Shown piece by piece: positions 1 to 48,409 of a DNA stretch of 64,000 bases. This DNA comes from Siphonodentalium dalli. Lineage: Eukaryota; Mollusca; Scaphopoda; Gadilida; Siphonodentaliidae. The first letter of the stretch is position 1. Every line of letters starts with the position of its first letter. The stretch lies in the NCBI GenBank assembly GCA_032622095.1, contig CP136064.1, positions 5,697,512 to 5,761,511 of the forward strand, in the 5' to 3' direction. The notes under the pieces were generated by a model. It did no database searches. It was given only the letters and a program-made list of their open reading frames with translations, and was not told the DNA's origin. Position numbers and translations under genes: made by a program.

Positions 1-3000
1 ACAGTGGCTGAATGGGAGAATCTATTGGTGAGAGACGGGTTAACAGTGAATGAATGGGAGAATCTATTGGTGAGAGACGGGTTAACAGTGGCTGAATGGG
101 AGAATGTATTGGTGAGAGACGGGTTAACAGTGGCTGAATGGGAGAATCTATTGGTGAGAGACGGGTTAACAGCGGCTGAATGGGAGAATCTATTGGTGAG
201 AGACGGGTTAACAGAGGCTGAATGGGAGAATCTATTGGTGAGAGACAGGTTAACAGTGGCTGAATGGGAGAATCTATTGGTGAGAGACGGGTTAACAGAG
301 GCTGAATGGGAGAATCTATTGGTGAGAGACGGGTTAACAGTGAATGAATGGGAGAATCTATTGGTGAGAGACGGGTTAACAGTGAATGAATGGGAGAATG
401 TATTGGTGAGAGACGGGTTAACAGTGGCTGAATGGGAGAATCTATTGGTGAGAGACGGGTTAACAGTGGCTGAATGGGAGAATCTATTGGTGAGAGACGG
501 GTTAACAGTGAATGAATGGGAGAATCTAATGAGGCGAGAGACGGGTTAACAGTGGCTGAATGGGAGAATCTATTGGTGAGAGACGGGTTAACAGTGGCTG
601 AATGGGAGAATCTATTGATGAGAGACGGGTTAACAGTGAATGAATGGGAGAATCTATTGGTGAGAGACGTGTTAACAGTGGCTGAATGGGAGAATCTATT
701 GGTGAGAGACGTGTTAACAGTGGCTGAATGGGAGAATCTATTGGTGAGAGACGGGTTAACAGTGGCTGAATGGGAGAATCTATTGGTGAGAGACGGGTTA
801 ACAGTGAATGAATGTGAGAATCTATTGGTGAGAGACGGGTTAACAGTGTCTGAATGGGAGAATCTATTGGTGAGAGACGGGTTAACAGTGGCTGAATGGG
901 AGAATCTATTGGTGAGAGACGGGTTAACAGTGGCTGAATGGGAGAATCTATTGGTGAGAGACGGGTTAACAGTGAATGAATGTGAGAATCTATTGGTGAG
1001 AGACGGGTTAACCGTGAATGAATGGGAGAATCTATTGGTGAGAGACGGGTTAACAGTGGCTGAATGGGAGAATCTATTGGTGAGAGACGGGTTAACAGTG
1101 AATGAATGGGAGAATCTATTGGTGAGAGACGGGTTAACAGTGGCTGAATGGGAGAATCTATTGGTGAGAGACGGGTTAACAGTGGCTGAATGGGAGAATC
1201 TATTGGTGAGTGACGGGTTAACAGTGGCTGAATGGGAGAATCTATTGGTGAGAGACGGGTTAACAGTGGCTGAATGGGAGAATCTATTGGTGAGAGACGG
1301 GTTAACAGTGGCTGAATGGGAGAATCTATTGGTGAGAGACGGGTTAACAGTGGCTGAATGGGAGAATCTATTGGTGAGAGACGGGTTAACAGTGGCTGAA
1401 TGGGAGAATCTATTGGTGAGAGACGGGTTAACAGTGGCTGAATGGGAGAATCTATTGGTGAGAGACGGGTTAACAGTGGCTGAATGGGAGAATCTATTGG
1501 TGAGAGACGGGTTAACAATGGCTGAATGGGAGAATCTATTGGTGAGAGACGGGTTAACAGTGGCTGAATGGGAGAATCTATTGGTGAGAGACGGGTTAAC
1601 AGTGGCTGAATGGGAGAATCTATTGGTGAGAGACGGGTTAACAATGGCTGAATGGGAGAATCTATTGGTGAGAGACGGGTTAACAGTGGCTGAATGAGAG
1701 AATCTATTGGTGAGAGACGGGTTAACAGTGGCTGAATGAGAGAATCTATTGGTGAGTGACGGGTTAACAGTGGCTGAATGGGAGAATCTATTGGTGAGAG
1801 ACGGGTTAACAGTGGCTGAATGGGAGAATCTATTGGTGAGAGACGAGTTAACAGTGGCTGAATGGGAGAATCTATTGGTGAGAGACGGGTTAACAGTGGC
1901 TGAATGGGAGAATCTATTGATGAGAGACGGGTTAACAGTGGCTGAATGGGAGAATCTATTGGTGAGAGACGGGTTAACAGTGGCTGAATGGGAGAATCTA
2001 TTGGTGAGAGACGGGGTTAACAGAGGCTGAATGGGAGAATCTATTGGTGAGAGACGGGTTAACAGTGGCTGAATGGGAGAATCTATTGGTGAGAGACGGG
2101 TTAACAGTGGCTGAATGGGAGAATCTATTGGTGAGAGACGGGTTAACAGTGGCTGAATGGGAGAATCTATTGATGAGAGACGGGTTAACAGTGGCTGAAT
2201 GGGAGAATCTATTGAGGCGAGACGGGTTAACAGTGAATGAATGGGAGAATCTATTGGTGAGAGACGGGTTAACAGTGGCTGAATGGGAGAATCTATTGGT
2301 GAGAGACGGGTTAACAGTGGCTGAATGAGAGAATCTATTGGTGAGAGACGGGTTAACAGTGGCTGAATGGGAGAATCCATTGGTGAGAGACGGGTTAACA
2401 GTGGCTGAATGGGAGAATCTATTGGTGAGAGACGGGTTAACAGTGGCTGAATGGGAGAATCTATTGGTGAGAGACGGGTTAACAGTGGCTGAATGGGAGA
2501 ATCTATTGAGGTGAGAGACGGGTTAACAGTGAATGAATGGGAGAATCTATTGGTGAGAGACGGGTTAACAGTGGCTGAATGGGAGAATCTATTGGTGAGA
2601 GACGGGTTAACAGTGGCTGAATGGGAGAATCTATTGGTGAGAGACGGGTTAACAGTGGCTGAATGGGAGAATCTATTGGTGAGAGACGGGTTAACAGTGG
2701 CTGAATGAGAGAATCTATTGGTGAGAGACGGGTTAACAGTGGCTGAATGGGAGAATCTATTGGTGAGAGACGGGTTAACAGTGGCTGAATGGGAGAATCT
2801 ATTGGTGAGAGACGGGTTAACAGTGGCTGAATGGGAGAATCTATTGGTGAGAGACGGGTTAACAGTGGCTGAATGGGAGAATCTATTGAGGTGAGAGACG
2901 GGTTAACAGTGAATGAATGGGAGAATCTATTGGTGAGAGACGGGTTAACAGTGGCTGAATGGGAGAATCTATTGGTGAGAGACGGGTTAACAGTGGCTGA

Positions 3001-4383
3001 ATGGGAGAATCTATTGGTGAGAGACGGGTTAACAGTGGCTGAATGGGAGAATCTATTGGTGAGAGACGGGTTAACAGTGGCTGAATGGGAGAATCTATTG
3101 GTGAGAGACGGGTTAACAGTGGCTGAATGGGAGAATCTATTGGTGAGAGACGGGTTAACAGTGGCTGAATGGGAGAATCTATTGGTGAGAGACGGGTTAA
3201 CAGTGGCTGAATGGGAGAATCTATTGGTGAGAGACGGGTTAACAGTGAATGAATGGGAGAATCTATTGGTGAGAGACGGGTTAACAGTGAATTAATGGGA
3301 GAATCTATTGGTGAGAGACGGGTTAACAGTGGCTGAATGGGAGAATCTATTGGTGAGAGATGGGTTAACGGTGGCTGAATGGGAGAATCTATTGAGGTGA
3401 GAGCGGGTTAACAGTGGCTGAATGGGTGAATCTATTGGTGAGAGACGGGTTAACAGTGGCTGAATGGGAGAATCTATTGGTGAGAGACGGGTTAACAGTG
3501 AATGAATGGGAGAATCTATTGGTGAGAGACGGGTTAACAGTGGCTGAATGGGTGAATCTATTGGTGAGAGACGGGTTAACAGTGGCTGAATGGGAGAATC
3601 TATTGGTGAGAGACGGGTTAACAGTGGCTGAATGGGAGAATCTATTGAGGTGAGAGACGGGTTAACAGTGGCTGAATGGGAGAATCTATTGGTGAGAGAC
3701 GGGTTAACAGTGGCTGAATGGGAGAATCTATTGGTGAGAGACGGGTTAACAGTGGCTGAATGGGAGAATCTATTGGTGAGAGACGGGTTAACAGTGGCTG
3801 AATGGGAGAATCTATTGGTGAGAGACGGGTTAACAGTGGCTGAATGGGAGAATCTATTGGTGAGAGACGGGTTAACAGTGAATGAATGGGAGAATCTATT
3901 GGTGAGAGACGGGTTAACAGTGGCTGAATGGGAGAATCTATTGGTGAGAGACGGGTTAACAGTGGCTGAATGGGAGAATCTATTGGTGAGAGACGGGTTA
4001 ACAGTGGCTGAATGGGAGAATCTATTGGTGAGAGACGGGTTAACAGTGGCTGAATGGGAGAATCTATTGGTGAGAGACGGGTTAACAGTGGCTGAATGGG
4101 AGAATCTATTGGTGAGAGACGGGTTAACAGTGGCTGAATGGGAGAATCTATTGGTGAGAGACGGGTTAACAGTGAATGAATGGGAGAATCTATTGGTGAG
4201 AGACGGGTTAACAGTGGCTGAATGAGAGAATCTATTGGTGAGAGACGGGTTAACAGTGGCTGAATGGGAGAATCTATTGGTGAGAGACGGGTTAACAGTG
4301 GCTGAATGGGAGAATCTATTGGTGAGAGACGGGTTAACAGTGGCTGAATGGGAGAATCTATTGGTGAGAGACGGGTTAACAGT

Positions 4384-5430
4384 GACTGAATGGGAGAATC
4401 TATTGGTGAGAGACGGGTTAACAGTGGCTGAATGGGAGAATCTATTGGTGAGAGACGGGTTAACAGTGGCTGAATGGGAGAATCTATTGAGGCGAGACGG
4501 GTTAACAGTGGCTGAATGGGAGAATCTATTGGTGAGAGACGGGTTAACAGTGAATGAATGGGAGAATATATTGATGAGAGACGGGTTAACAGTGGCTGAA
4601 TGGGAGAATCTATTGGTGAGAGACGGGTTAACAGTGGCTGAATGGGAGAATCTATTGGTGAGAGACGGGTTAACAGTGGCTGAATGGGAGAATCTATTGG
4701 TGAGAGACGGGTTAACAGTGGCTGAATGGGAGAATCTATTGGTGAGAGACGGGTTAACAGTGGCTGAATGGGAGAATCTATTGGTGAGAGACGGGTTAAC
4801 AGTGGCTGAATGGGAGAATCTATTGGTGAGAGACGGGTTAACAGTGGCTGAATGGGAGAATCTATTGGTGAGAGACGGGTTAACAGTGAATGAATGGGAG
4901 AATCTATTGGTGAGAGACGGGTTAACAGTGGCTGAATGGGAGAATCTATTGGTGAGAGACGGGCTAACAGTGGCTGAATGGGAGAATCTATTGGTGAGAG
5001 ACGGGTTAACAGTGGCTGAATGGGAGAATCTATTGAGGCGAGACGGGTTAACAGTGGCTGAATGGGAGAATCTATTGGTGAGAGACGGGTTAACAGTGAA
5101 TGAATGGGAGAATATATTGATGAGAGACGGGTTAACAGTGGCTGAATGGGAGAATCTATTGGTGAGAGACGGGTTAACAGTGGCTGAATGGGAGAATCTA
5201 TTGGTGAGAGACGGGTTAACAGTGGCTGAATGGGAGAATCTATTGGTGAGAGACGGGTTAACAGTGGCTGAATGGGAGAATCTATTGGTGAGAGACGGGT
5301 TAACAGTGGCTGAATGGGAGAATCTATTGGTGAGAGACGGGTTAACAGTGAATGAATGGGAGAATCTATTGGTGAGAGACGGGTTAACAGTGGCTGAATG
5401 GGAGAATCTATTGGTGAGAGACGGGCTAAC
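4384..5430. repeat. Higher-order repeat in the 42-bp array, 546-bp (13-unit) period
   Basis: A run of variant units (gtgactgaa, then gaggcgagacgg, then aatatattgatgagag) occurs around 4384-4580. The gaggcgag and aatatattgatg markers recur 546 bp (13 units) later: aatata is at 4565 and 5111. The block was amplified as a unit. Confidence 0.85.
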
Positions 5431-8400
5431 AGTGGCTGAATGGGAGAATGTATTGATGAGAGACGGGTTAACAGTGGCTGAATGGGAGAATCTATTGGTG
5501 AGAGACGGGTTAACAGTGGCTGAATGGGAGAATCTATTGGTGAGAGACGAGTTAACAGTGGCTGAATGGGAGAATCTATTGGTGAGAGACGGGTTAACAG
5601 TGGCTGAATGGGAGAATCTATTGGTGAGAGACAGGTTAACAGTGGCTGAATGGGAGAATCTATTGGTGAGAGACGGGTTAACAGTGGCTGAATGGGAGAA
5701 TCTATTGGTGAGAGACGGGTTAACAGTGAATGAATGGGAGAATCTATTGGAGAGTGACGGGTTAACAGTGGCTGAATGGGAGAATCTATTGGTGAGAGAC
5801 GGGTTAACAGTGGCTGAATGGGAGAATCTATTGGTGAGAGACGGGTTAACAGTGGCTGAATGGGAGAATCTATTGGTGAGAGACGGGTTAACAGTGGCTG
5901 AATGGGAGAATCTATTGGTGAGAGACGGGTTAACAGTGGCTGAATGGGAGAATCTATTGGTGAGAGACGGGTTAACAGTGGCTGAATGGGAGAATCTATT
6001 GGTGAGAGACGGGTTAACAGTGGCTGAATGGGAGAATCTATTAGTGAGAGACGTGTTAACAGTGGCTGAATGGGAGAATCTATTGGTGAGAGACGGGCTA
6101 ACAATGGCTGAATGGGAGAATCTATTGGTGAGAGACGGGTTAACAGTGGCTGAATGGGAGAATCTATTGGTGAGAGACGGGTTAACAGTGAATGAATGGG
6201 AGAATCTATTGGAGAGTGACGGGTTAACAGTGGCTGAATGGGAGAATCTATTGGTGAGAGACGGGTTAACAGTGAATGAATGGGAGAATCTATTGGTGAG
6301 AGACGGGTTAACAGTGGCTGAATGGGAGAATCTATTGGTGAGAGACGGGTTAACAGTGGCTGAATGGGAGAATCTATTGGTGAGAGACGGGTTAACAGTG
6401 GCTGAATGGGAGAATCTATTGGTGAGAGACGGGTTAACAGTGGCTGAATGGGAGAATCTATTGGTGAGAGACGAGTTAACAGTGGCTGAATGGGAGAATC
6501 TATTGGTGAGAGACGGGTTAACAGTGGCTGAATGGGAGAATCTATTGGTGAGAGACGGGTTAACAGTGGCTGAATGGGAGAATCTATTGGTGAGAGACGG
6601 GTTAACAGTGGCTGAATGGGAGAATCTATTGGTGAGAGACGGGTTAACAGTGGCTGAATGGGAGAATCTATTGGTGAGAGACGGGTTAACAGTGAATGAA
6701 TGGGAGAATCTATTGGTGAGAGACAGGTTAACAGTGGCTGAATGGGAGAATCTATTGGTGAGAGACGGGTTAACAGTGGCTGAATGGGAGAATCTATTGG
6801 TGAGAGACGGGTTAACAGTGAATGAATGGGAGAATCTATTGGTGAGAGACAGGTTAACAGTGAATGAATGGGAGAATCTATTGAGGTGAGAGACGGGTTA
6901 ACAGTGGCTGAATGGGAGAATCTATTGGTGAGAGACGGGTTAACAGTGGCTGAATGGGAGAATCTATTGGTGAGAGACGGGCTAACAGTGGCTGAATGGG
7001 AGAATCTATTGGTGAGAGACGGGTTAACAGTGAATGAATGGGAGAATCTATTGGTGAGAGACGGGTTAACAGTGGCTGAATGGGAGAATCTATTGAGGTG
7101 AGAGACGGGTTAACAGTGAATGAATGGGAGAATCTATTGGTGAGAGACGGGTTAACAGTGAATGAATGGGAGAATCTATTGGTGAGAGACGGGTTAACAG
7201 TGGCTGAATGGGAGAATCTATTGAGGTGAGAGACGGGTTAACAGTGAATGAATGGGAGAATCTATTGGTGAGAGACGGGCTAACAGTGGCTGAATGGGAG
7301 AATCTATTGGTGAGAGACGGGTTAACAGTGAATGAATGGGAGAATCTATTGGTGAGAGACGGGTTAACAGTGGCTGAATGGAAGAATCTATTGGTGAGAG
7401 ACGGGTTAACAGTGGCTGAATGGGAGAATCTATTGGTGAGAGACGGGTTAACAGTGACTGAATGGGAGAATCTATAGGTGAGAGACGGGTTAACAGTGGC
7501 TAAATGGGAGAATCTATTGGTGAGAGACGGGTTAACAGTGGCTGAATGGGAGAATCTATTGGTGAGAGACGGGTTAACAGTGGCTGAATGGGAGAATCTA
7601 TTGGTGAGAGACGGGTTAACAGTGGCTGAATGGAAGAATCTATTGGTGAGAGACGGGTTAACAGTGGCTGAATGGGAGAATCTATTGGTGAGAGACGGGT
7701 TAACAGTGAATGAATGGGAGAATCTATTGGTGAGAGACGGGTTAACAGTGAATGAATGGGAGAATCTATTGGTGAGAGACGGGTTAACAGTGGCTGAATG
7801 GGAGAATCTATTGGTGAGAGACGGGTTAACAGTGGCTGAATGGGAGAATCTATTGGTGAGAGACGGGTTAACAGTGAATGAATGGGAGAATCTATTGGTG
7901 AGTGACGGGTTAACAGTGAATGAATGGGAGAATCTATTGGTGAGAGACGGGTTAACAGTGGCTGAATGGGAGAATCTATTGGTGAGAGACGGGTTAACAG
8001 TGGCTGAATGGGAGAATCTATTGGTGAGAGACGGGTTAACAGTGGCTGAATGGGAGAATCTATTGGTGAGAGACGGGTTAACAGTGGCTGAATGGGAGAA
8101 TCTATTGGTGAGAGACGGGTTAACAGTGGCTGAATGGGAGAATCTATTGGTGAGATACGGGTTAACAGTGGCTGAATGGGAGAATCTATTGGTGAGAGAC
8201 GGGTTAACAGTGGCTGAATGGGAGAATCTATTGGTGAGAGACGGGTTAACAGTGGCTGAATGGGAGAATCTATTGGTGAGAGACGGGTTAACAGTGACTG
8301 AATGGGAGAATCTATTGGTGAGAGACGGGTTAACAGTGGCTGAATGGGAGAATCTATTGGTGAGAGACAGGTTAACAGTGAATGAATGGGAGAATCTATT

Positions 8401-9390
8401 GAGGCGAGAGCGGGTTAACAGTGGCTGAATGGGAGAATCTATTGGTGAGAGACGGGTTAACAGTGAATGAATGGGAGAATCTATTGAGGTGAGAGACGGG
8501 TTAACAGTGGCCGAATGGGAGAATCTATTGGTGAGAGCGGGTTAACAGTGGCTGAATGGGAGAATCTATTGGTGAGTGACGGGTTAACAGTGGCCGAATG
8601 GGAGAATCTATTGGTGAGAGCGGGTTAACAGTGGCTGAATGGGAGAATCTATTGGTGAGAGCGGGTTAACAGTGGCTGAATGGGAGAATCTATTGGTGAG
8701 AGACGGGTTAACAGTGGCTGAATGGGAGAATCTATTGGTGAGAGACGGGTTAACAGTGGCTGAATGGGAGAATCTATTGGTGAGAGACGGGTTAACAGTG
8801 GCTGAATGGGAGAATCTATTGGTGAGAGACGGGTTAACAGTGGCTGAATGGGAGAATCTATTGGTGAGAGACGGGTTAACAGTGGCTGAATGGGAGAATC
8901 TATTGGTGAGAGACGGGTTAACAGTGGCTGAATGGGAGAATCTATTGGTGAGAGATGGGTTAACAGTGGCTGAATGGGAGAATCTATTGGTGAGAGACGG
9001 GTTAACAGTGGCTGAATGGGAGAATCTATTGGTGAGAGACGGGTTAACAGTGGCTGAATGGGAGAATCTATTGGTGAGAGACGGGTTAACAGTGAATGAA
9101 TGGGAGAATCTATTGGTGAGAGACGGGTTAACAGTGGCTGAATGGGAGAATCTATTGGTGAGAGACGGGTTAACAGTGGCTGAATGGGAGAATCTATTGG
9201 TGAGAGACGGGTTAACAGTGGCTGAATGGGAGAATCTATTGGTGAGAGACGGGTTAACAGTGGCTGAATGGGAGAATCTATTGGTGAGAGACGGGTTAAC
9301 AGTGGCTGAATGGGAGAATCTATTGGTGAGAGACGGGTTAACAGTGGCTGAATGGGAGAATCTATTGGTGAGAGACGGGTTAACAGTGAC

Positions 9391-10330
9391 TGAATGAGAG
9401 AATCTATTGAGGTGAGAGACGGGTTAACAGTGGCTGAATGGGAGAATCTATTGGTGAGAGACGGGTTAACAGTGGCTGAATGGGAGAATCTATTGATGAG
9501 AGACGGGTTAACAGTGGCTGAATGGGAGAATCTATTGGTGAGAGACGGGTTAACAGTGGCTGAATGGGAGAATCTATTGGTGAGAGACGGGTTAACAGTG
9601 GCTGAATGGGAGAATCTATTGGTGAGAGACGGGTTAACAGTGGCTGAATGGGAGAATGTATTGGTTAGAGACGGGTTAACAGTGGCTGAATGGGAGAATG
9701 TATTGGTGAGAGACGGGTTAACAGTGGCTGAATGGGAGAATGTATTGGTGAGAGACGGGTTAACAGTGGCTGAATGGGAGAATCTATTGGTGAGAGACGG
9801 GTTAACAGTGGCTGAATGGGAGAATCTATTGGTGAGAGACGGGTTAACAGTGACTGAATGAGAGAATCTATTGAGGTGAGAGACGGGTTAACAGTGGCTG
9901 AATGGGAGAATCTATTGGTGAGAGACGGGTTAACAGTGGCTGAATGGGAGAATCTATTGATGAGAGACGGGTTAACAGTGGCTGAATGGGAGAATCTATT
10001 GGTGAGAGACGGGTTAACAGTGGCTGAATGGGAGAATCTATTGGTGAGAGACGGGTTAACAGTGGCTGAATGGGAGAATCTATTGGTGAGAGACGGGTTA
10101 ACAGTGGCTGAATGGGAGAATCTATTGGTGAGAGACGGGTTAACAGTGGCTGAATGGGAGAATGTATTGGTGAGAGACGGGTTAACAGTGGCTGAATGGG
10201 AGAATGTATTGGTGAGAGACGGGTTAACAGTGGCTGAATGGGAGAATGTATTGGTGAGAGACGGGTTAACAGTGGCTGAATGGGAGAATCTATTGGTGAG
10301 AGACGGGTTAACAGTGGCTGAATGGGAGAA
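9391..10330. repeat. Higher-order repeat in the 42-bp array, 464-bp period
   Basis: The marker tgaatgagagaatctattga with the 44-bp variant occurs at 9391 and 9855, 464 bp apart (11 units plus 2 bp). It is followed in both copies by one tgatgagag unit and by three consecutive aatgtattgg units. This is a recent block duplication. Confidence 0.85.
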
Positions 10331-12089
10331 TCTATTGGTGAGAGACGGGTTAACAGTGGCTGAATGGGAGAATCTATTGGTGAGAGACGGGTTAACAGTG
10401 ACTGAATGGGAGAATCTATTGAGGCGAGACGGGTTAACAGTGGCTGAATGGGAGAATCTATTGGTGAGTGACGGGTTAACAGTGGCTGAATGGGAGAATC
10501 TATTGGTGAGAGACAGGTTAACAGTGGCTGAATGGGAGAATCTATTGGTGAGAGACGGGTTAACAGTGGCTGAATGGGAGAATGTATTGGTGAGAGACGG
10601 GTTAACAGTGGCTGAATGGGAGAATCTATTGGTGAGAGACGGGTTAACAGTGGCTGAATGGGAGAATCTATTGGTGAGAGACGGGTTAACAGTGGCTGAA
10701 TGGGAGAATCTATTGGTGAGAGACGGGTTAACAGTGGCTGAATGGGAGAATCTATTGAGGCGAGACGGGTTAACAGTGGCTGAATGGGAGAATCTATTGG
10801 TGAGAGACGGGTTAACAGTGACTGAATGGGAGAATCTATTGAGGCGAGACGGGTTAACAGTGGCTGAATGGGAGAATCTATTGGTGAGTGACGGGTTAAC
10901 AGTGGCTGAATGGGAGAATCTATTGGTGAGAGACAGGTTAACAGTGGCTGAATGGGAGAATCTATTGGTGAGAGACGGGTTAACAGTGGCTGAATGGGAG
11001 AATCTATTGAGGCGAGACAGGTTAACAGTGGCTGAATGGGAGAATCTATTGGTGAGAGACGGGTTAACAGTGACTGAATGGGAGAATCTATTGAGGCGAG
11101 ACGGGTTAACAGTGGCTGAATGGGAGAATCTATTGGTGAGTGACGGGTTAACAGTGGCTGAATGGGAGAATCTATTGGTGAGAGACAGGTTAACAGTGGC
11201 TGAATGGGAGAATCTATTGGTGAGAGACGGGTTAACAGTGGCTGAATGGGAGAATCTATTGGTGAGTGACGGGTTAACAGTGGCTGAATGGGAGAATCTA
11301 TTGGTGAGAGACGGGTTAACAGTGGCTGAATGGGAGAATCTATTGGTGAGAGACGGGTTAACAGTGGCTGAATGGGAGAATCTATTGGTGAGTGACGGGT
11401 TAACAGTGGCTGAATGGGAGAATCTATTGGTGAGAGACGGGTTAACAGTGGCTGAATGGGAGAATCTATTGGTGAGTGACGGGTTAACAGTGGCTGAATG
11501 GGAGAATCTATTGGTGAGAGACGGGTTAACAGTGGCTGAATGGGAGAATCTATTGGTGAGTGACGGGTTAACAGTGGCTGAATGGGAGAATCTATTGGTG
11601 AGAGACGGGTTAACAGTGGCTGAATGGGAGAATCTATTGGTGAGAGACGGGTTAACAGTGGCTGAATGGGAGAATCTATTGGTGAGTGACGGGTTAACAG
11701 TGGCTGAATGGGAGAATCTATTGGTGAGAGACGGGTTAACAGTGGCTGAATGGGAGAATCTATTGGTGAGAGACGGGTTAACAGTGGCTGAATGGGAGAA
11801 TCTATTGGTGAGTGACGGGTTAACAGTGGCTGAATGGGAGAATCTATTGGTGAGAGACGGGTTAACAGTGGCTGAATGGGAGAATCTATTGGTGAGAGAC
11901 GGGTTAACAGTGGCTGAATGGGAGAATCTATTGGTGAGAGACGGGTTAACAGTGGCTGAATGGGAGAATCTATTGGTGAGAGACGGGTTAACAGTGAATG
12001 AATGGGAGAATCTATTGGTGAGAGACGGGTTAACAGTGGCTGAATGGGAGAATCTATTGGTGAGAGACGGGTTAACAGTGAATGAATGG

Positions 12090-13660
12090 GGGAATCTATT
12101 GAGGCGAGACGGGTTAACAGTGGCTGAATGGGAGAATCTATTGGTGAGAGACGGGTTAACTGTGGCTGAATGGGAGAATCTATTGGTGAGAGACGGGTTA
12201 ACAGTGACTGAATGGGAGAATCTATAGGTGAGAGACGGGTTAACAGTGGCTGAATGGGAGAATCTATTGGTGAGAGACGGGTTAACAGTGGCTGAATGGG
12301 AGAATCTATTGGTGAGAGACGGGTTAACAGTGGCTGAATGGGAGAATCTATTGGTGAGAGACGGGTTAACAGTGGCTGAATGGGAGAATCTATTGAGGCG
12401 AGACGGGTTAACTGTGGCTGAATGGGAGAATCTATTGGTGAGAGACGGGTTAACAGTGGCTGAATGGGAGAATCTATTGGTGAGAGACGGGTTAACATGG
12501 CTGAATGATAGAATCTATTGGTGAGAGACGGGTTAACAGTGAATGAATGGGAGAATCTATTGGTGAGAGACGGGTTAACAGTGGCTGAATGGGAGAATCT
12601 ATTGGTGAGAGACGGGTTAACAGTGGCTGAATGGGAGAATCTATTGGTGAGAGACGGGTTAACAGTGGCTGAATGGGAGAATCTATTGGTGAGTGACGGG
12701 TTAACAGTGGCTGAATGGGAGAATCTATTGGTGAGAGACGGGTTAACAGTGGCTGAATGGGAGAATCTATTGGTGAGAGACGGGTTAACAGTGGCTGAAT
12801 GGGAGAATCTATTGGTGAGAGACGGGTTAACAGTGGCTGAATGGGAGAATCTATTGGTGAGTGACGGGTTAACAGTGGCTGAATGGGAGAATCTATTGGT
12901 GAGAGACGGGTTAACAGTGGCTGAATGGGAGAATCTATTGGTGAGAGACGGGTTAACAGTGAATCAATGGGAGAATCTATTGGTGAGAGACGGGTTAACA
13001 GTGAATGAATGGGGGAATCTATTGAGGCGAGACGGGTTAACAGTGGCTGAATGGGAGAATCTATTGGTGAGAGACGGGTTAACTGTGGCTGAATGGGAGA
13101 ATCTATTGGTGAGAGACGGGTTAACAGTGACTGAATGGGAGAATCTATAGGTGAGAGACGGGTTAACAGTGGCTGAATGGGAGAATCTATTGGTGAGAGA
13201 CGGGTTAACAGTGGCTGAATGGGAGAATCTATTGGTGAGAGACGGGTTAACAGTGGCTGAATGGGAGAATCTATTGGTGAGAGACGGGTTAACAGTGGCT
13301 GAATGGGAGAATCTATTGAGGCGAGACGGGTTAACTGTGGCTGAATGGGAGAATCTATTGGTGAGAGACGGGTTAACAGTGGCTGAATGGGAGAATCTAT
13401 TGGTGAGAGACGGGTTAACAGTGGCTGAATGGGAGAATCTATTGGTGAGAGACGGGTTAACAGTGACTGAATGGGAGAATCTATTGGTGAGAGACGGGTT
13501 AACAGTGAATGAATGGGAGAATCTATTGGTGAGAGACGGGTTAACAGTGGCTGAATGGGAGAATCTATTGGTGAGAGACGGGTTAACGGTGGCTGAATGG
13601 GAGAATCTATTGGTGAGAGACGGGTTAACATGGCTGAATGGGAGAATCTATTGGTGAGAG
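12090..13660. repeat. Higher-order repeat in the 42-bp array, ~923-bp period
   Basis: The ordered markers gaatgggggaatc, gaggcgagacgg, ttaactgtggc and tctataggtg occur near 12090-12230 and again near 13010-13150. tctatag is at 12221 and 13144. The 923-bp spacing is one base short of 22 units because of small indels. Confidence 0.8.
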
Positions 13661-16452
13661 ACGGGTTAACATGGCTGAATGAGAGAATCTATTGGTGAGA
13701 GACGGGTTAACAGTGAATGAATGGGAGAATCTATTGGTGAGAGACGGGTTAACAGTGGCTGAATGGGAGAATCTATTGGTGAGAGACGGGTTAACAGTGA
13801 ATGAATGGGAGAATCTATTGGTGAGAGACGGGTTAACAGTGGCTGAATGGGAGAATCTATTGAGGTGAGAGACGGGTTAATAGTGGCTGAATGGGAGAAT
13901 CTATTGGTGAGAGACGGGTTAATAGTGGCTGAATGGGAGAATCTATTGGTGAGAGACGGGTTAACATGGCTGAATGAGAGAATCTATTGAGGTGAGAGAC
14001 GGGTTAACAGTGAATGAATGGGAGAATCTATTGGTGAGAGACGGGTTAACAGTTGCTGAATGGGAGAATCTATTGGTGAGAGACGGGTTAACAGTGGCTG
14101 AATGGGAGAATCTATTGGTGAGAGACGGGTTAACAGTGGCTGAATGGGAGAATCTATTGGTGAGAGACGGGTTAACAGTGAATGAATGGGAGAATCTATT
14201 GGTGAGAGACGGGTTAACAGTGGCTGAATGGGAGAATATATTGGTGAGAGACGGGTTAACTGTGGCTGAATGGGAGAATCTATTGGTGAGAGACGGGTTA
14301 ACAGAGGCTGAATGGGAGAATGTATTGGTGAGAGACGGGTTAACAGAGGCTGAATGGGAGAATCTATTGGTGAGAGACGGGTTAACAGTGGCTGAATGGG
14401 AGAATCTATTGGTGAGAGATGGGTTAACGGTGGCTGAATGGGAGAATGTATTGGTGAGAGACGGGTTAACAGAGGCTGAATGGGAGAATCTATTGGTGAG
14501 AGACGGGTTAACAGTGGCTGAATGGGAGAATCTATTGGTGAGAGACGGGTTAACAGTGGCTGAATGGGAGAATCTATTGGTGAGAGACGGGTTAACAGTG
14601 AATGAATGGGAGAATCTATTGGTGAGAGACGGGTTAACAGTGGCTGAATGGGAGAATCTATTGGTGAGAGATGGGTTAACGGTGGCTGAATGGGAGAATG
14701 TATTGGTGAGAGACGGGTTAACAGAGGCTGAATGGGAGAATCTATTGGTGAGAGACGGGTTAACAGTGGCTGAATGGGAGAATCTATTGGTGAGAGACGG
14801 GTTAACAGTGGCTGAATGGGAGAATCTATTGGTGAGAGACGGGTTAACAGTGAATGAATGGGAGAATCTATTGGTGAGAGACGGGTTAACAGTGGCTGAA
14901 TGGGAGAATATATTGGTGAGAGACGGGTTAACTGTGGCTGAATGGGAGAATCTATTGGTGAGAGACGGGTTAACAGTGGCTGAATGGGAGAATATATTGG
15001 TGAGAGACGGGTTAACTGTGGCTGAATGGGAGAATCTATTGGTGAGAGACGGGTTAACAGTGGCTGAATGGGAGAATCTATTGGTGAGAGACGGGTTAAC
15101 AGTGGCTGAATGGGATAATCTATTGGTGAGAGACGGGTTAACAGTGGCTGAATGGGAGAATCTATTGGTGAGAGACAGGTTAACAGTGGCTGAATGGGAG
15201 AATCTATTGAGGTGAGAGACGGGTTAACAGTGAATGAATGGGAGAATCTATTGGTGAGAGACGGGTTAACAGTGAATGAATGGGAGAATCTATTGGTGAG
15301 AGACGGGTTAACAGTGAATGAATGGGAGAATCTATTGGTGAGAGACGGGTTAACAGTGAATGAATGGGAGAATCTATTGGTGAGAGACGGGTTAACAGTG
15401 AATGAATGGGAGAATCTATTGGTGAGAGACGGGTTAACAGTGAATGAATGGGAGAATCTATTGGTGAGAGACGGGTTAACAGTGAATGAATGGGAGAATC
15501 TATTGGTGAGAGACGGGTTAACAGTGAATGAATGGGAGAATCTATTGGTGAGAGACGGGTTAACAGTGGCTGAATGGGAGAATCTATTGGTGAGAGACGG
15601 GTTAACAGTGGCTGAATGGGAGAATCTATTGGTGAGAGACGGGTTAACAGTGAATGAATGGGAGAATCTATTGGTGAGTGACGGGTTAACAGTGAATGAA
15701 TGGGAGAATCTATTGGTGAGAGACGTGTTAACAGTGGCTGAATGGGAGAATCTATTGGTGAGAGACGGGTTAACAGTGGCTGAATGGGAGAATCTATTGG
15801 TGAGAGACGGGTTAACAGTGGCTGAATGGGAGAATCTATTGGTGAGAGACGGGTTAACAGTGAATGAATGGGAGAATCTATTGGTGAGAGACGGGTTAAC
15901 AGTGGCTGAATGGGAGAATCTATTGGTGAGAGACGGGTTAACAGTGAATGAATGGGAGAATCTATTGGTGAGTGACGGGTTAACAGTGAATGAATGGGAG
16001 AATCTATTGGTGAGAGACGTGTTAACAGTGGCTGAATGGGAGAATCTATTGGTGAGAGACGGGTTAACAGTGGCTGAATGGGAGAATCTATTGGTGAGAG
16101 ACGGGTTAACAGTGGCTGAATGGGAGAATCTATTGGTGAGAGACGGGTTAACAGTGAATGAATGGGAGAATCTATTGGTGAGAGACGGGTTAACAGTGGC
16201 TGAATGGGAGAATCTATTGGTGAGTGACGGGTTAACAGTGGCTGAATGGGAGAATCTATTGGTGAGTGACGGGTTAACAGTGGCTGAATGGGAGAATCTA
16301 TTGAGGCGAGAGCGGGTTAACAGTGGCTGAATGGGAGAATCTATTGGTGAGAGACGGGTTAACAGTGGCTGAATGGGAGAATCTATTGGTGAGAGACGGG
16401 TTAACAGTGGCTGAATGGGAGAATCTATCGAGGCGAGAGCGGGTTAACAGTG

Positions 16453-26512: not shown

Positions 26513-26587
26513 AAATGAAAGGCGAGTTGGAGGAACTGATGGCAGATATTAAAAAGACAGCAAATAAAGTTAGGGGGAAACTAAAAG
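26513..26587 (+). CDS. STX1: Syntaxin-1, internal exon (Hb helix region)
   Basis: 75-bp exon bounded by tttttgcag and gtacgt. After two bases completing the previous codon it encodes MKGE-LEELMADIKKTANKVRGK-LK and ends with one base of the next codon. This is the signature of neuronal syntaxin (animal STX1 about residues 84-108, with LEELM.DIKKTANKVR.KLK nearly invariant). Syntaxin-1 is the plasma-membrane t-SNARE that pairs with SNAP-25 and synaptobrevin in synaptic vesicle fusion; this segment is part of the N-terminal Habc bundle that folds back on the SNARE motif and binds Munc18. Exons for residues 1-82 are not in the window. Phase and boundaries join exactly to the exon at 35776. I recognised this from memory of the family, without an alignment search. 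Confidence 0.95.
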
Positions 26588-35775: not shown

Positions 35776-35849
35776 TTATTGAAAACAATATAGAACAGGA
35801 AGAACATTCTAACAAATCGTCAGCCGATCTGAGAATACGGAAAACCCAG
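35776..35849 (+). CDS. STX1: Syntaxin-1, internal exon (Hb-Hc loop)
   Basis: 74-bp exon between tttacag and gtgagt. With the G left by the previous exon it reads VIENNIEQEEHSNKSSADLR then IRKTQ, 25 codons. It matches vertebrate STX1 (about residues 109-119 preceded by IEQ.IEQEE..N.SSADLRIRKTQ), where it covers the end of Hb, the polar loop and the start of Hc. It ends in phase 0 at CAG, so either of the two downstream 109-bp exons can follow in frame. Splice sites are canonical. Conservation of SSADLRIRKTQ makes the identification very secure. Confidence 0.95.
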
Positions 35850-45404: not shown

Positions 45405-45805
45405 TTAACCCTTTACCCAACAAACCGGCCAAAACCGGCCAAATAAAGCTTCAACAGCCTAAAATATCTTCGGTCTGTCTCAATAGAACCATACAAATAT
45501 GGATATCATTGGAACCGGCTCCTTGACCACATTGTGATAGTTACAGTTATGCCCTGTGCCAATGCATTTTCTTATATATGCGAGTCGACCATAGGTCGCC
45601 TCGCATATATAAGAGAATGCATTGGCCTAAAAAAATATCTTTTTTTAACACTTTTTACCATTTTTTCTTACATTCTTTAACAATTTTATAATTTTTAATG
45701 TGTTAAGCCAATGCATTCTCTTATATATGCGAGGCGACCTATGGTCGACTCGCATATATAAGAGAATGCATTGGCACAGGGCCCTTCTGTTGGGTAAAGG
45801 GTTAA
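45405..45805 (-). mobile_element. piggyBac-like MITE, family A, copy 5
   Basis: Full length, reverse orientation: TTAACCCTTTACCCAACAAA ... two inverted cassettes ... TTGGGTAAAGGGTTAA. It ends 144 bp before the first alternative STX1 exon. Confidence 0.87.
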
Positions 45806-45948: not shown

Positions 45949-46057
45949 TACTCGACTATATCTCGTAAATTTATCGAAGTTATGACAGAATACAATCAGC
46001 AACAAATCAATTATCGAGACGGCTGCCTAAATCGCATTAAACGGCAAATGGAGATTA
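45949..46057 (+). CDS. STX1: Syntaxin-1 alternative exon A (Hc helix, divergent version)
   Basis: 109-bp exon between tatttttgtag and gtaagc, starting in phase 0 and ending with one base (A) of a split codon. It encodes [36 protein letters not shown], 36 residues aligned to animal STX1 about 120-155 (Hc helix and start of the linker). It is 21 of 36 residues identical to the exon at 47151, with the same length and phase. The Cys aligned with STX1 Cys145 is kept, but its surroundings ([15 protein letters not shown] in the canonical form) are changed to [15 protein letters not shown]. Open frame and intact splice sites argue against a pseudo-exon. Use of both exons or neither would shift the frame, so it should be mutually exclusive with the next exon. 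Confidence 0.9.
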
Positions 46058-47150
46058 GTAAGCAGGCATATAGATAGATCGTACAGCTTTGTCTAAGTTA
46101 TTTATCACGTAGTTTACAGTAGATGAAAACTATATCAAGCCATATTCATATTATGTTTATTACGAATAAAACAAGATTTTCAATTGGCTAATTGTATTCA
46201 CTGTGGCTCATTTACTAAAAGCGTAACGTATAAAACAAACTATTTTATTCAATTAACTAACATAATTGTAAAAACTTACTTAATAGAAGTGAGGACTTCT
46301 GTATTTCCCATTTTACTGATTGCTTTCAATGACAGAAATTTGCATCATAATAAATTTCTAGTTTCAATCACATCAGAAAAGATATATTCCTATAATCACA
46401 CATCGCTTCTTTGGGTATTTAATTATTATTATAAAATTGTAATTTCTAAAACAATTTTCCTCTGAAGAGAAATCATGATGTTATAGTTTATTGCTTATAA
46501 GATGAGAGCATTCCAGCATATTTATCAAAATGTTTGTGATTTTATTTGGATAAGATAAACTTGGATTTCTTTCGACGGCTCTTATTTTACCAGTATAATT
46601 GACTGAGAATACAAAAATTTTCCTTTACTGATATAATACCTGGTTTTGGATAAATTTTAACAAGGAGTTGATGGCATTTAATATTACTTGTATCTTACAA
46701 GAATATTACCTCAACAGATCAAAATTTACAACAGCTATGTGTTGCAGAATGTTTTTTTTATACATTTTCAGTTACATTTTGAAAATATTCCGCAGAACCT
46801 AAAAAAGATACTATGTTTGACTAAAAAGTTTGTAAAATTCCTTTCCCAATTGAATTAGTCCAGATGTTTCTGAAGCGGTGTTGACATATGGAAAGCGGTG
46901 TAGACACTTGAAAAGCAAGCTCTATCTATATGCCTCTATCCTGAGAGAGAAAAAATATTTCAGGTTAATTTATTACTTATAACAGCCACATACAGTTGAA
47001 TATATTCCAATTGAAACTTGTTTTTGTCTCTGTATTTTATTAAACTTGCTGAATTTAAATATCATTTCATAATTAATCTATTAAATTATTCCGATGTTTA
47101 ATATCTTAATTTCGCACTGTATCTTGTTTTGTTTTCTTTCTTTTTGTTAG
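46058..47150 (+). other. Intron between the alternative STX1 exons, repeat-free
   Basis: 1,093 bp from gtaagc to ctttttgttag. I see no MITE, tandem array or TE fragment in it, in contrast to the rest of the window. It carries a complementary pair (46064-46078 and 46921-46935) and a short direct repeat gaagcggtgttgaca/aaagcggtgtagaca at 46872-46906. The ORF at 46184-46465 has no recognisable domain. Confidence 0.85.
46064..46935 (+). promoter_or_regulatory. Intronic complementary pair, candidate splice-controlling RNA stem
   Basis: aggcatatagataga (46064-46078) begins 7 nt after the exon A junction. tctatctatatgcct (46921-46935) is its perfect reverse complement and lies 215 nt before exon B. 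The pairing may extend imperfectly (agctttgtctaagt against acttgaaaagcaagc). A stem here would sit beside the exon A donor and loop out about 840 nt. The role in exon choice is inferred by analogy with known mutually exclusive exon systems. Confidence 0.5.
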
Positions 47151-47259
47151 CACGCCACATTATCTCGTAAATTTGTCGAAGTTATGAACGATTATAATGC
47201 CTGTCAAATTGACTACCGGGAGAGATGCAAAGGCCGAATTCAACGCCAACTGGAAATCA
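47151..47259 (+). CDS. STX1: Syntaxin-1 alternative exon B (Hc helix, canonical version)
   Basis: 109-bp exon between tctttttgttag and gtaaga, same phase as exon A. It encodes [36 protein letters not shown]. The last 15 residues ([15 protein letters not shown]) are identical to the vertebrate STX1 sequence as I remember it, including Cys145, so this is the conventional form. The segment forms the C-terminal part of the Hc helix of the Habc domain and leads into the linker whose next residues (the TT.EELEDMLE motif, with the Leu-Glu that hold the closed state) must be in an exon beyond the window. An extra Cys (DYNACQ) is present in this version but not in exon A. Confidence 0.95.
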
Positions 47260-47423
47260 GTAAGACATCTGTGTTCATTGTTGTAAACTCTTAGTCCTTT
47301 GCGATAGTGACTGACTAACTACCAGTTCTGATTTAAATCTTACTTGGGACGCTTCAGATACTGAGTCTGATGAAATTGGGTCGGGATTCCATTACTACAA
47401 GCAGGAATTACGTAATTGTCAGC

Positions 47424-47677
47424 CAAGCCTTGAAATAGTGTGTCTGTCATTTGCAGAATGAGGTCCCCAGAGGGTGAATTTAGTGATGCTACCCCGCATA
47501 GCAGGCTAGCAACACCAAATTCACCCTCTGGGGACCTCATTCTGCTTAGAACTCAGCAGAATGAGGTCCCCAGAGGGTGAATTTAGTGATGCTATCCCGC
47601 TATGCGGGGTAGCATCACTAAATTCACCCTCTGGGGACCTCATTCTACAAATGACAGACACACTATTTCAAGGCTTG
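47424..47677. mobile_element. Foldback MITE, family E, compact full copy (254 bp)
   Basis: Left end CAAGCCTTGAAATAGTGTGT and exactly complementary right end acacactatttcaaggcttg. It is flanked by a perfect 9-bp TSD, attgtcagc (47415-47423 and 47678-47686). Inside are two tandem inverted gaggtccccagagggtgaat/attcaccctctggggacctc hairpins. Other copies give 8-bp TSDs, so the superfamily is uncertain (hAT- or Mutator-like). Confidence 0.9.
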
Positions 47678-48015
47678 ATTGTCAGCCAATCACAATATCA
47701 TCAGTAAAGCGATGTAACCAATCAGGCGATAGTCGCATCGAATACCCAAGACAAGGGGAATTTCTTCAGCCAGCGTGATTCCAGTGAACCGCGCCCATTA
47801 GCTAAAATAGCTTAAAGAACTTTTCCGCTGCATGGCTAATTTCACACAGTATTTACAAATTCAGAGTTTCCGACATGCAATTAAACACTAGCTGAAAGGC
47901 GTATATAAAGAGTCCAGAATTGACCAATTATATTACCAGCTAACATGTCTAATAGAATTGAATTTCAACATTTAGAACCAAGCAATAAGAGGTAGATTTA
48001 ACTTTTGGATTTTGC

Positions 48016-48409
48016 TTAACCCTTTACCCAACAGAAGGGCCCTGTGCCAATGCATTCTCTTATATATGCGAGTCGACCATAGGTCGCCTCGCATATATAA
48101 GAGAATGCATTGGCTTAACACATTAAAAATTATAAAATTGTTAAAGAATGTAAGAAAAAATGGTAAAAAGTGTTTTAGGCCAATGCATTCTCTTATATAT
48201 GCGAGGCGACCTATGGTCGACTCGCATATATAAGAGAATGCATTGGCACAGGGTATAACTATAACCATCACAATGTGGTCAATGAGCCGGTTCCAATGAT
48301 ATCCATATTTGTATGGTTTTATTGAGACAGACCGAAGATATTTTAGGCTGTTGAAGCTTTATTTGGCCGGTTTTGGCCGTTTTGGCCAGTTTGTTGGGTA
48401 AAGGGTTAA
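48016..48409 (+). mobile_element. piggyBac-like MITE, family A, copy 6
   Basis: Full length with TTAA at both ends, two inverted cassettes, and a shortened spacer; the right third has a tandem ggttttggccgttttggcca expansion. Confidence 0.87.

Follow-up and report, generated by a model that had tools for sequence, protein, structure and literature searches.

Syntaxin-1 is the slowly evolving SNARE at the centre of neurotransmitter release. By analogy, the closest precedent for the locus described here is exon 5a/5b of vertebrate SNAP-25, a single-copy gene for a partner of syntaxin-1 in the SNARE complex, in which, as parts of PMC2581893 describe, a tandem duplication imposes an obligate choice of one exon out of two. 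The two SNAP-25 exons differ at 9 of 39 residues in the palmitoylated cysteine region (same parts of PMC2581893), whereas the syntaxin-1 exons reported below differ at 15 of 36 residues and lie in the Hc helix. A second relevant case is that of exons 8a/8b of unc-64, the syntaxin-1 orthologue of C. elegans, whose alternative splicing is regulated by CELF/UNC-75 and, according to the sections of PMC4946901 concerned, alters the C-terminal membrane anchor; here, in contrast, an internal Hc exon is swapped. Among the matches listed by our literature search, no title or abstract opening mentions a choice of Hc exon in syntaxin-1; automatic molluscan annotations may contain one.

Here we analysed a stretch of 64,000 nucleotides from the scaphopod Siphonodentalium dalli (the window), which carries two alternative versions, 6A and 6B, of the exon coding for the end of the Hc helix of syntaxin-1.

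A tandem exon pair in a syntaxin-1 gene

Exons 3 to 10 of the gene were located with mammalian and fly syntaxin probes, partly beyond the window (Table 1); exons 1 and 2 were not located with these probes. Exon 5 had been proposed to end in phase 0 at 35849, which splicing confirmed. The gene has a single membrane anchor exon among those found, ending in ...KKIMIIICVIILLGVLALILGLTLG followed by the stop, and a SNARE motif match (PF05739, 46.3 bits, over the cut-off) at C4:5771466-5771579 overlaps exon 9.

Between exons 5 and 7, the initial annotation had described two paralogous exons of 109 bp each that begin in phase 0, end one base into a codon and have canonical splice sites. Re-reading of the coordinates, lengths, phases and AG/GT sites bore this out, and the reported protein alignment held as well (36/36 residues covered, 21 identities, zero gaps). 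The two exons are identical at 74 of 109 nucleotides (25/37, 31/36 and 18/36 at codon positions 1, 2 and 3, respectively), and a tblastn search of the window plus 30 kb with 6A retrieved 6B at E=3.6e-12; this similarity is not due to chance. The swapped stretch comprises 36 residues, corresponding to rat positions 120-155, and covers, as judged from the helix borders, the C-terminal portion of Hc together with the beginning of the linker.

Exon 6B is identical to mammalian STX1A at 31 of 36 residues and scores 36.5 bits against the Habc profile PF00804, above the 26.7 cut-off; 6A alone scores 24.7 bits, below it. When spliced into the Habc part of the protein, both versions match PDB syntaxins, with best E values of 3.4e-66 (6A) and 8.2e-68 (6B). 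A change of charge around the conserved cysteine of 6A had also been put forward. Charges are indeed rearranged there (D140N, R144G, K146L and Q150K from 6B to 6A), but the net charge does not change, being +2 in both exons over rat positions 140-150 as well as over the whole exon.

Table 1. Positions of the syntaxin-1 exons and of the intron separating 6A and 6B. Numbers refer to the window unless preceded by C4.
Feature	Position	Strand	Remarks
Syntaxin-1 exon 3	C4:5650388-5650487		47 kb ahead of the window
Syntaxin-1 exon 4	26513..26587	+	75 bp; tblastn, 20/23 identical to mammalian STX1A; AG/GT; frame joins exons 3 and 5
Syntaxin-1 exon 5	35776..35849	+	74 bp; ends in phase 0 at ...RIRKTQ; tblastn, AG/GT, frame
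Exon 6A, variant Hc exon of syntaxin-1	45949..46057	+	109 bp; phase 0 to 1; AG/GT
Intron between 6A and 6B	46058..47150	+	1093 nt
Exon 6B, canonical Hc exon of syntaxin-1	47151..47259	+	109 bp; phase 0 to 1; AG/GT
Syntaxin-1 exon 7	window-equivalent 67737-67810		past the window end; AG/GT
Syntaxin-1 exon 8	window-equivalent 71223-71360		past the window end; AG/GT
Syntaxin-1 exon 9	window-equivalent 73952-74062		past the window end; AG/GT
Syntaxin-1 exon 10, to the stop	window-equivalent 74991-75068		past the window end; AG acceptor

In a search of the genome (2.2 Gb) with each exon separately, each of 6A and 6B matched itself and its partner at E values of around 3e-7, with no further match below E=1, although gaps or withheld stretches of the genome could conceal another copy in a search run exon by exon. 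Because only 6A and 6B were recovered, this genome appears to have a single syntaxin-1 gene with a single exon pair. A second syntaxin-1 locus as the source of one of the exons was considered and set aside: up to E=10, the sole further hit was on C7 (E=4, with 6B), and there was none with 6A. Pattern searches of viral and prokaryotic contigs in IMG/VR and GTDB gave 29 and 36 matches, respectively, and no relative was confirmed among them.

Reading frame and exclusive use

Splicing of 6A alone or 6B alone onto the real neighbouring exons gives a reading frame that runs uninterrupted from exon 3 through ...ILGLTLG to the stop. A length of 109 is not divisible by 3, so that other combinations shift the frame to an early stop. 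With both exons included, the seventh codon counted from the junction between 6A and 6B is a stop; with both omitted, exon 7 is read in a wrong frame and a stop comes after 13 of its codons. These premature stops lie well upstream of the last junctions. The earlier proposal that a working mRNA must contain exactly one of the two exons agrees with these products, and mutually exclusive splicing is supported by the frame constraint, the single intact gene, the intact splice sites and a low dN/dS (see below).

Our main reading, to which we give a probability of roughly four in five, is that 6A and 6B form a mutually exclusive tandem pair, the choice between which would probably grade the opening of syntaxin. 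An ancestral 109-bp Hc exon of the single-copy gene would have been duplicated in tandem before the lineage of this animal split from that of squid, and splicing would now connect exon 5 with one of the two copies, and that copy with exon 7. Exclusive use in S. dalli is what we infer from the frame logic and from one related protein, discussed next; the age of the pair, a choice by tissue and an effect on release are likewise what we infer.

Relationship to squid s-syntaxin

Among solved structures, the best match of exon 6A is not a mammalian syntaxin, it is s-syntaxin (PDB 1s94, E=2.7e-12), which we take to be a squid protein. One passage of PMC7024357 uses the name 'S-syntaxin' for Doryteuthis pealeii O46345. 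The 1s94 chain passes from ...RIRKTQ (exon 5) through one A-like Hc segment to TGRTTTNEELEDMLESG (exon 7), so that a real protein contains an A-like segment by itself. Five residues of 6A are found in 1s94 (Y120, I123, D143, K150 and M153) where 6B and the mammalian chain have H, L, E, Q and L. Over the flanking exons 3-5, the S. dalli protein is identical to squid at 72 of 83 positions and to the mammalian chain at 62 of 83. To our knowledge, s-syntaxin exists in a single protein form, and our literature search listed no report of a B-type partner for it. The syntaxin cDNA of Aplysia is probably of the B type.

Plain similarity does not decide which of the two exons is the partner of the squid segment. 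The latter is identical to 6A at 27 and to 6B at 26 of the 36 residues, and phmmer slightly favours 6B, both with the exon alone (51.8 bits with 6B and 47.6 with 6A) and with the Habc part (228.2 and 224.6 bits), we think because 6B and squid both keep ancestral residues. The case for grouping 6A with squid therefore depends on the derived residues that the two have in common within 36 sites. The maximum likelihood tree uniting 6A and squid was the best by more than 10 log units. In AU tests on four sequences, this topology obtained p=0.986, the alternative uniting 6B and squid p=0.026, and that uniting 6A and 6B p=0.007; the corresponding values were 0.980, 0.039 and 0.008 with seven sequences, a set that includes three segments typed from recall. 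Relative to an ancestor assumed by majority, five of the eight squid changes match 6A and one matches 6B. In a crude test that drew changes at random 200,000 times over the 15 variable sites only, five or more matches with 6A came up in about 1.7e-4 of the draws.

These data bear on the strongest alternative, namely that the duplication is real but private to the lineage of this animal, the squid Hc exon being single and its A-like residues having arisen independently. The near-equal identities, the slightly higher phmmer scores with 6B and the small number of sites compared would all be compatible with such a history. The five derived residues shared by 6A and squid, the low frequency of such a match in the simple draw and the AU values for squid with 6B and for 6A with 6B all speak against it, and we consider it unlikely. 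The likeness of 6A to s-syntaxin, another member of the syntaxin family, is incomplete: at positions 144, 146 and 147, 6A has G, L and N, compared with R, K and G in both 6B and the mammalian protein and R, K and A in squid. Exon 6A of this animal has thus drifted further, as it differs there from 6B, from the mammalian chain and from squid.

Control of the exon choice

The pyrimidine tract of the acceptor is weaker in 6A (10/17) than in 6B (15/17); because of this difference, 6B may be the default exon and 6A the regulated one. A perfect 15-nt stem joins 46064-46078, starting 6 nt past the end of 6A, to 46921-46935 within the intron between the two exons. A stem at least as long occurred in 5 of 1000 shuffles, yet stems of 15 nt are also reached in 17 of 23 further intron segments of the same length, all in one genome, and the stem is a weak candidate for the docking element of a Dscam-like competition between RNA pairings. 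Within 300 nt of the exons, no Fox motif was found, and counts of Fox, PTB, Nova and CELF motifs, made without a background model, were not decisive. Rfam gave no match at gathering score within the window, and no element near 6A and 6B was convincing as a switch.

Of two other ways of enforcing the choice, one was rejected and one looks unlikely. Both exons have ordinary GT/AG sites by inspection, which excludes incompatible U12-type splice sites, and steric hindrance in a too-short intron would be unlikely with 1093 nt. Codons 4-12 of the two exons (45958-45984 and 47160-47186) have nine consecutive identical third positions (permutation p=0.009), compared with 9 of 27 in the other codons; this run may reflect either a splicing enhancer common to both exons or a short conversion tract.

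Both exons might also be used without a strictly regulated switch, as splicing noise or as poison combinations that lower syntaxin through nonsense-mediated decay. Unproductive forms would be easily made, since the products with both exons or neither stop early and well ahead of the last junctions, and no specific switch element was identified. Against this, the derived residues that 6A has in common with s-syntaxin imply a selected protein product beyond a decay device, and we rate such unregulated use a little lower than a private duplication.

Age of and constraint on exon 6A

Between 6A and 6B, dS is 1.40 and dN 0.30 (dN/dS about 0.21), and different codons are used at 9 of the 21 residues common to both. 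Since synonymous divergence is so much higher than nonsynonymous divergence and shared residues differ in codon, the duplication is apparently an old one and the protein seems to be under constraint. We simulated neutral change from 6B to 34 base differences (35 observed) in 20,000 runs. A stop codon appeared in 83% of them, at least 21 residues were kept in 0.2%, and identity, conservatism and openness were jointly matched in 0 of the 20,000; the simulation puts all change on 6A and is weaker if 6B took part, for example through many silent changes. Exon 6A is thus probably an old exon in use. That it is instead a dead or nearly unused duplicate retained by chance, all working mRNA coming from 6B, would fit its weaker acceptor and its departure at R144 and K146, both kept by squid, 6B and the mammalian chain, but is very improbable given its stop-free frame, intact splice sites and low dN/dS, the outcome of the neutral simulation and the five derived residues in common with s-syntaxin.

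Possible consequences for the opening of syntaxin

Several residues of the swapped stretch have been linked to the closed and open states of syntaxin. As described in parts of PMC8728020 and PMC13398699, R151 and I155 dock the MUN domain of Munc13, which is unable to open the linker when both are mutated. The mutation C145W, reported in a section of PMC9995539 to have arisen de novo in two epilepsy patients, was predicted there by modelling to collide with Tyr141 and Arg198 when syntaxin is closed. According to a passage of a review (PMC10779493), the classical mode of Munc18 binding is disrupted when Cys145 is nitrosylated.

The exon swap would exchange Hc and linker residues that help to keep syntaxin closed, in the stretch that includes the Munc13 docking pair R151/I155. 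The closed-to-open step would be tuned and not abolished, since R151, I155, Y141 and C145 are kept in both exons and their surroundings differ (D140N, E143D, R144G, K146L, G147N, Q150K and L153M from 6B to 6A). The likely effect is a graded one, on the tightness of the closed state or on the ease of opening by Munc13, with neither step lost. Exon choice may in this manner tune the opening of syntaxin by Munc13 and Munc18.

A broader proposal, which we put forward tentatively and at slightly less than even odds, is that an ancient Hc splicing switch conserved in molluscs, and perhaps more widely in lophotrochozoans, sets the opening of Munc18-bound syntaxin by Munc13, 1s94 being the A isoform. 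From the comparisons made here, we regard the evidence that the pair is old and used as fair, and the functional hypothesis as a pointed one. If true, a conserved Hc choice near residues used by Munc13 would offer a natural two-state experiment on how syntaxin passes from closed to open. Squid s-syntaxin, presumably the syntaxin of the classic squid synapse work, would then represent, as a solved invertebrate Habc structure, one of two isoforms and not a generic squid syntaxin.

Repeats surrounding the exon pair

Two elements of about 400 bp flanked by TTAA, at 45405-45805 and 48016-48409, lie in opposite orientation on either side of 6A and 6B. Their ends read CCCTTTACCC.../...GGGTAAAGGG, and the two copies are 92% identical over their full length, with arms that are 97-100% complementary in ungapped blocks. 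We take the element to be piggyBac-MITE-like. Nine left and ten right ends occur within the window, at about 20400-62942, and 40 scored places in the genome (of 564 candidates, this one included) match it nearly full-length at 99-100%. Judging from these copies, the family is recently amplified. Base pairing between the two flanking copies in the pre-mRNA could place both exons in a loop, which could favour circular RNA, double skipping or A-to-I editing. The inverted pair was rejected as the switch itself, since its copies are frequent and near-identical, hence young, and the exons are old.

About 160 nt after 6B, an inverted repeat pair at 47417-47684 has arms of 133 nt that are 93% complementary, with two shorter palindromes inside. 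Finally, the large intron between exons 3 and 4 contains a satellite array at positions 1-16452, with 391 copies of a 42-bp unit, 96% matches and a strong skew of G over C.
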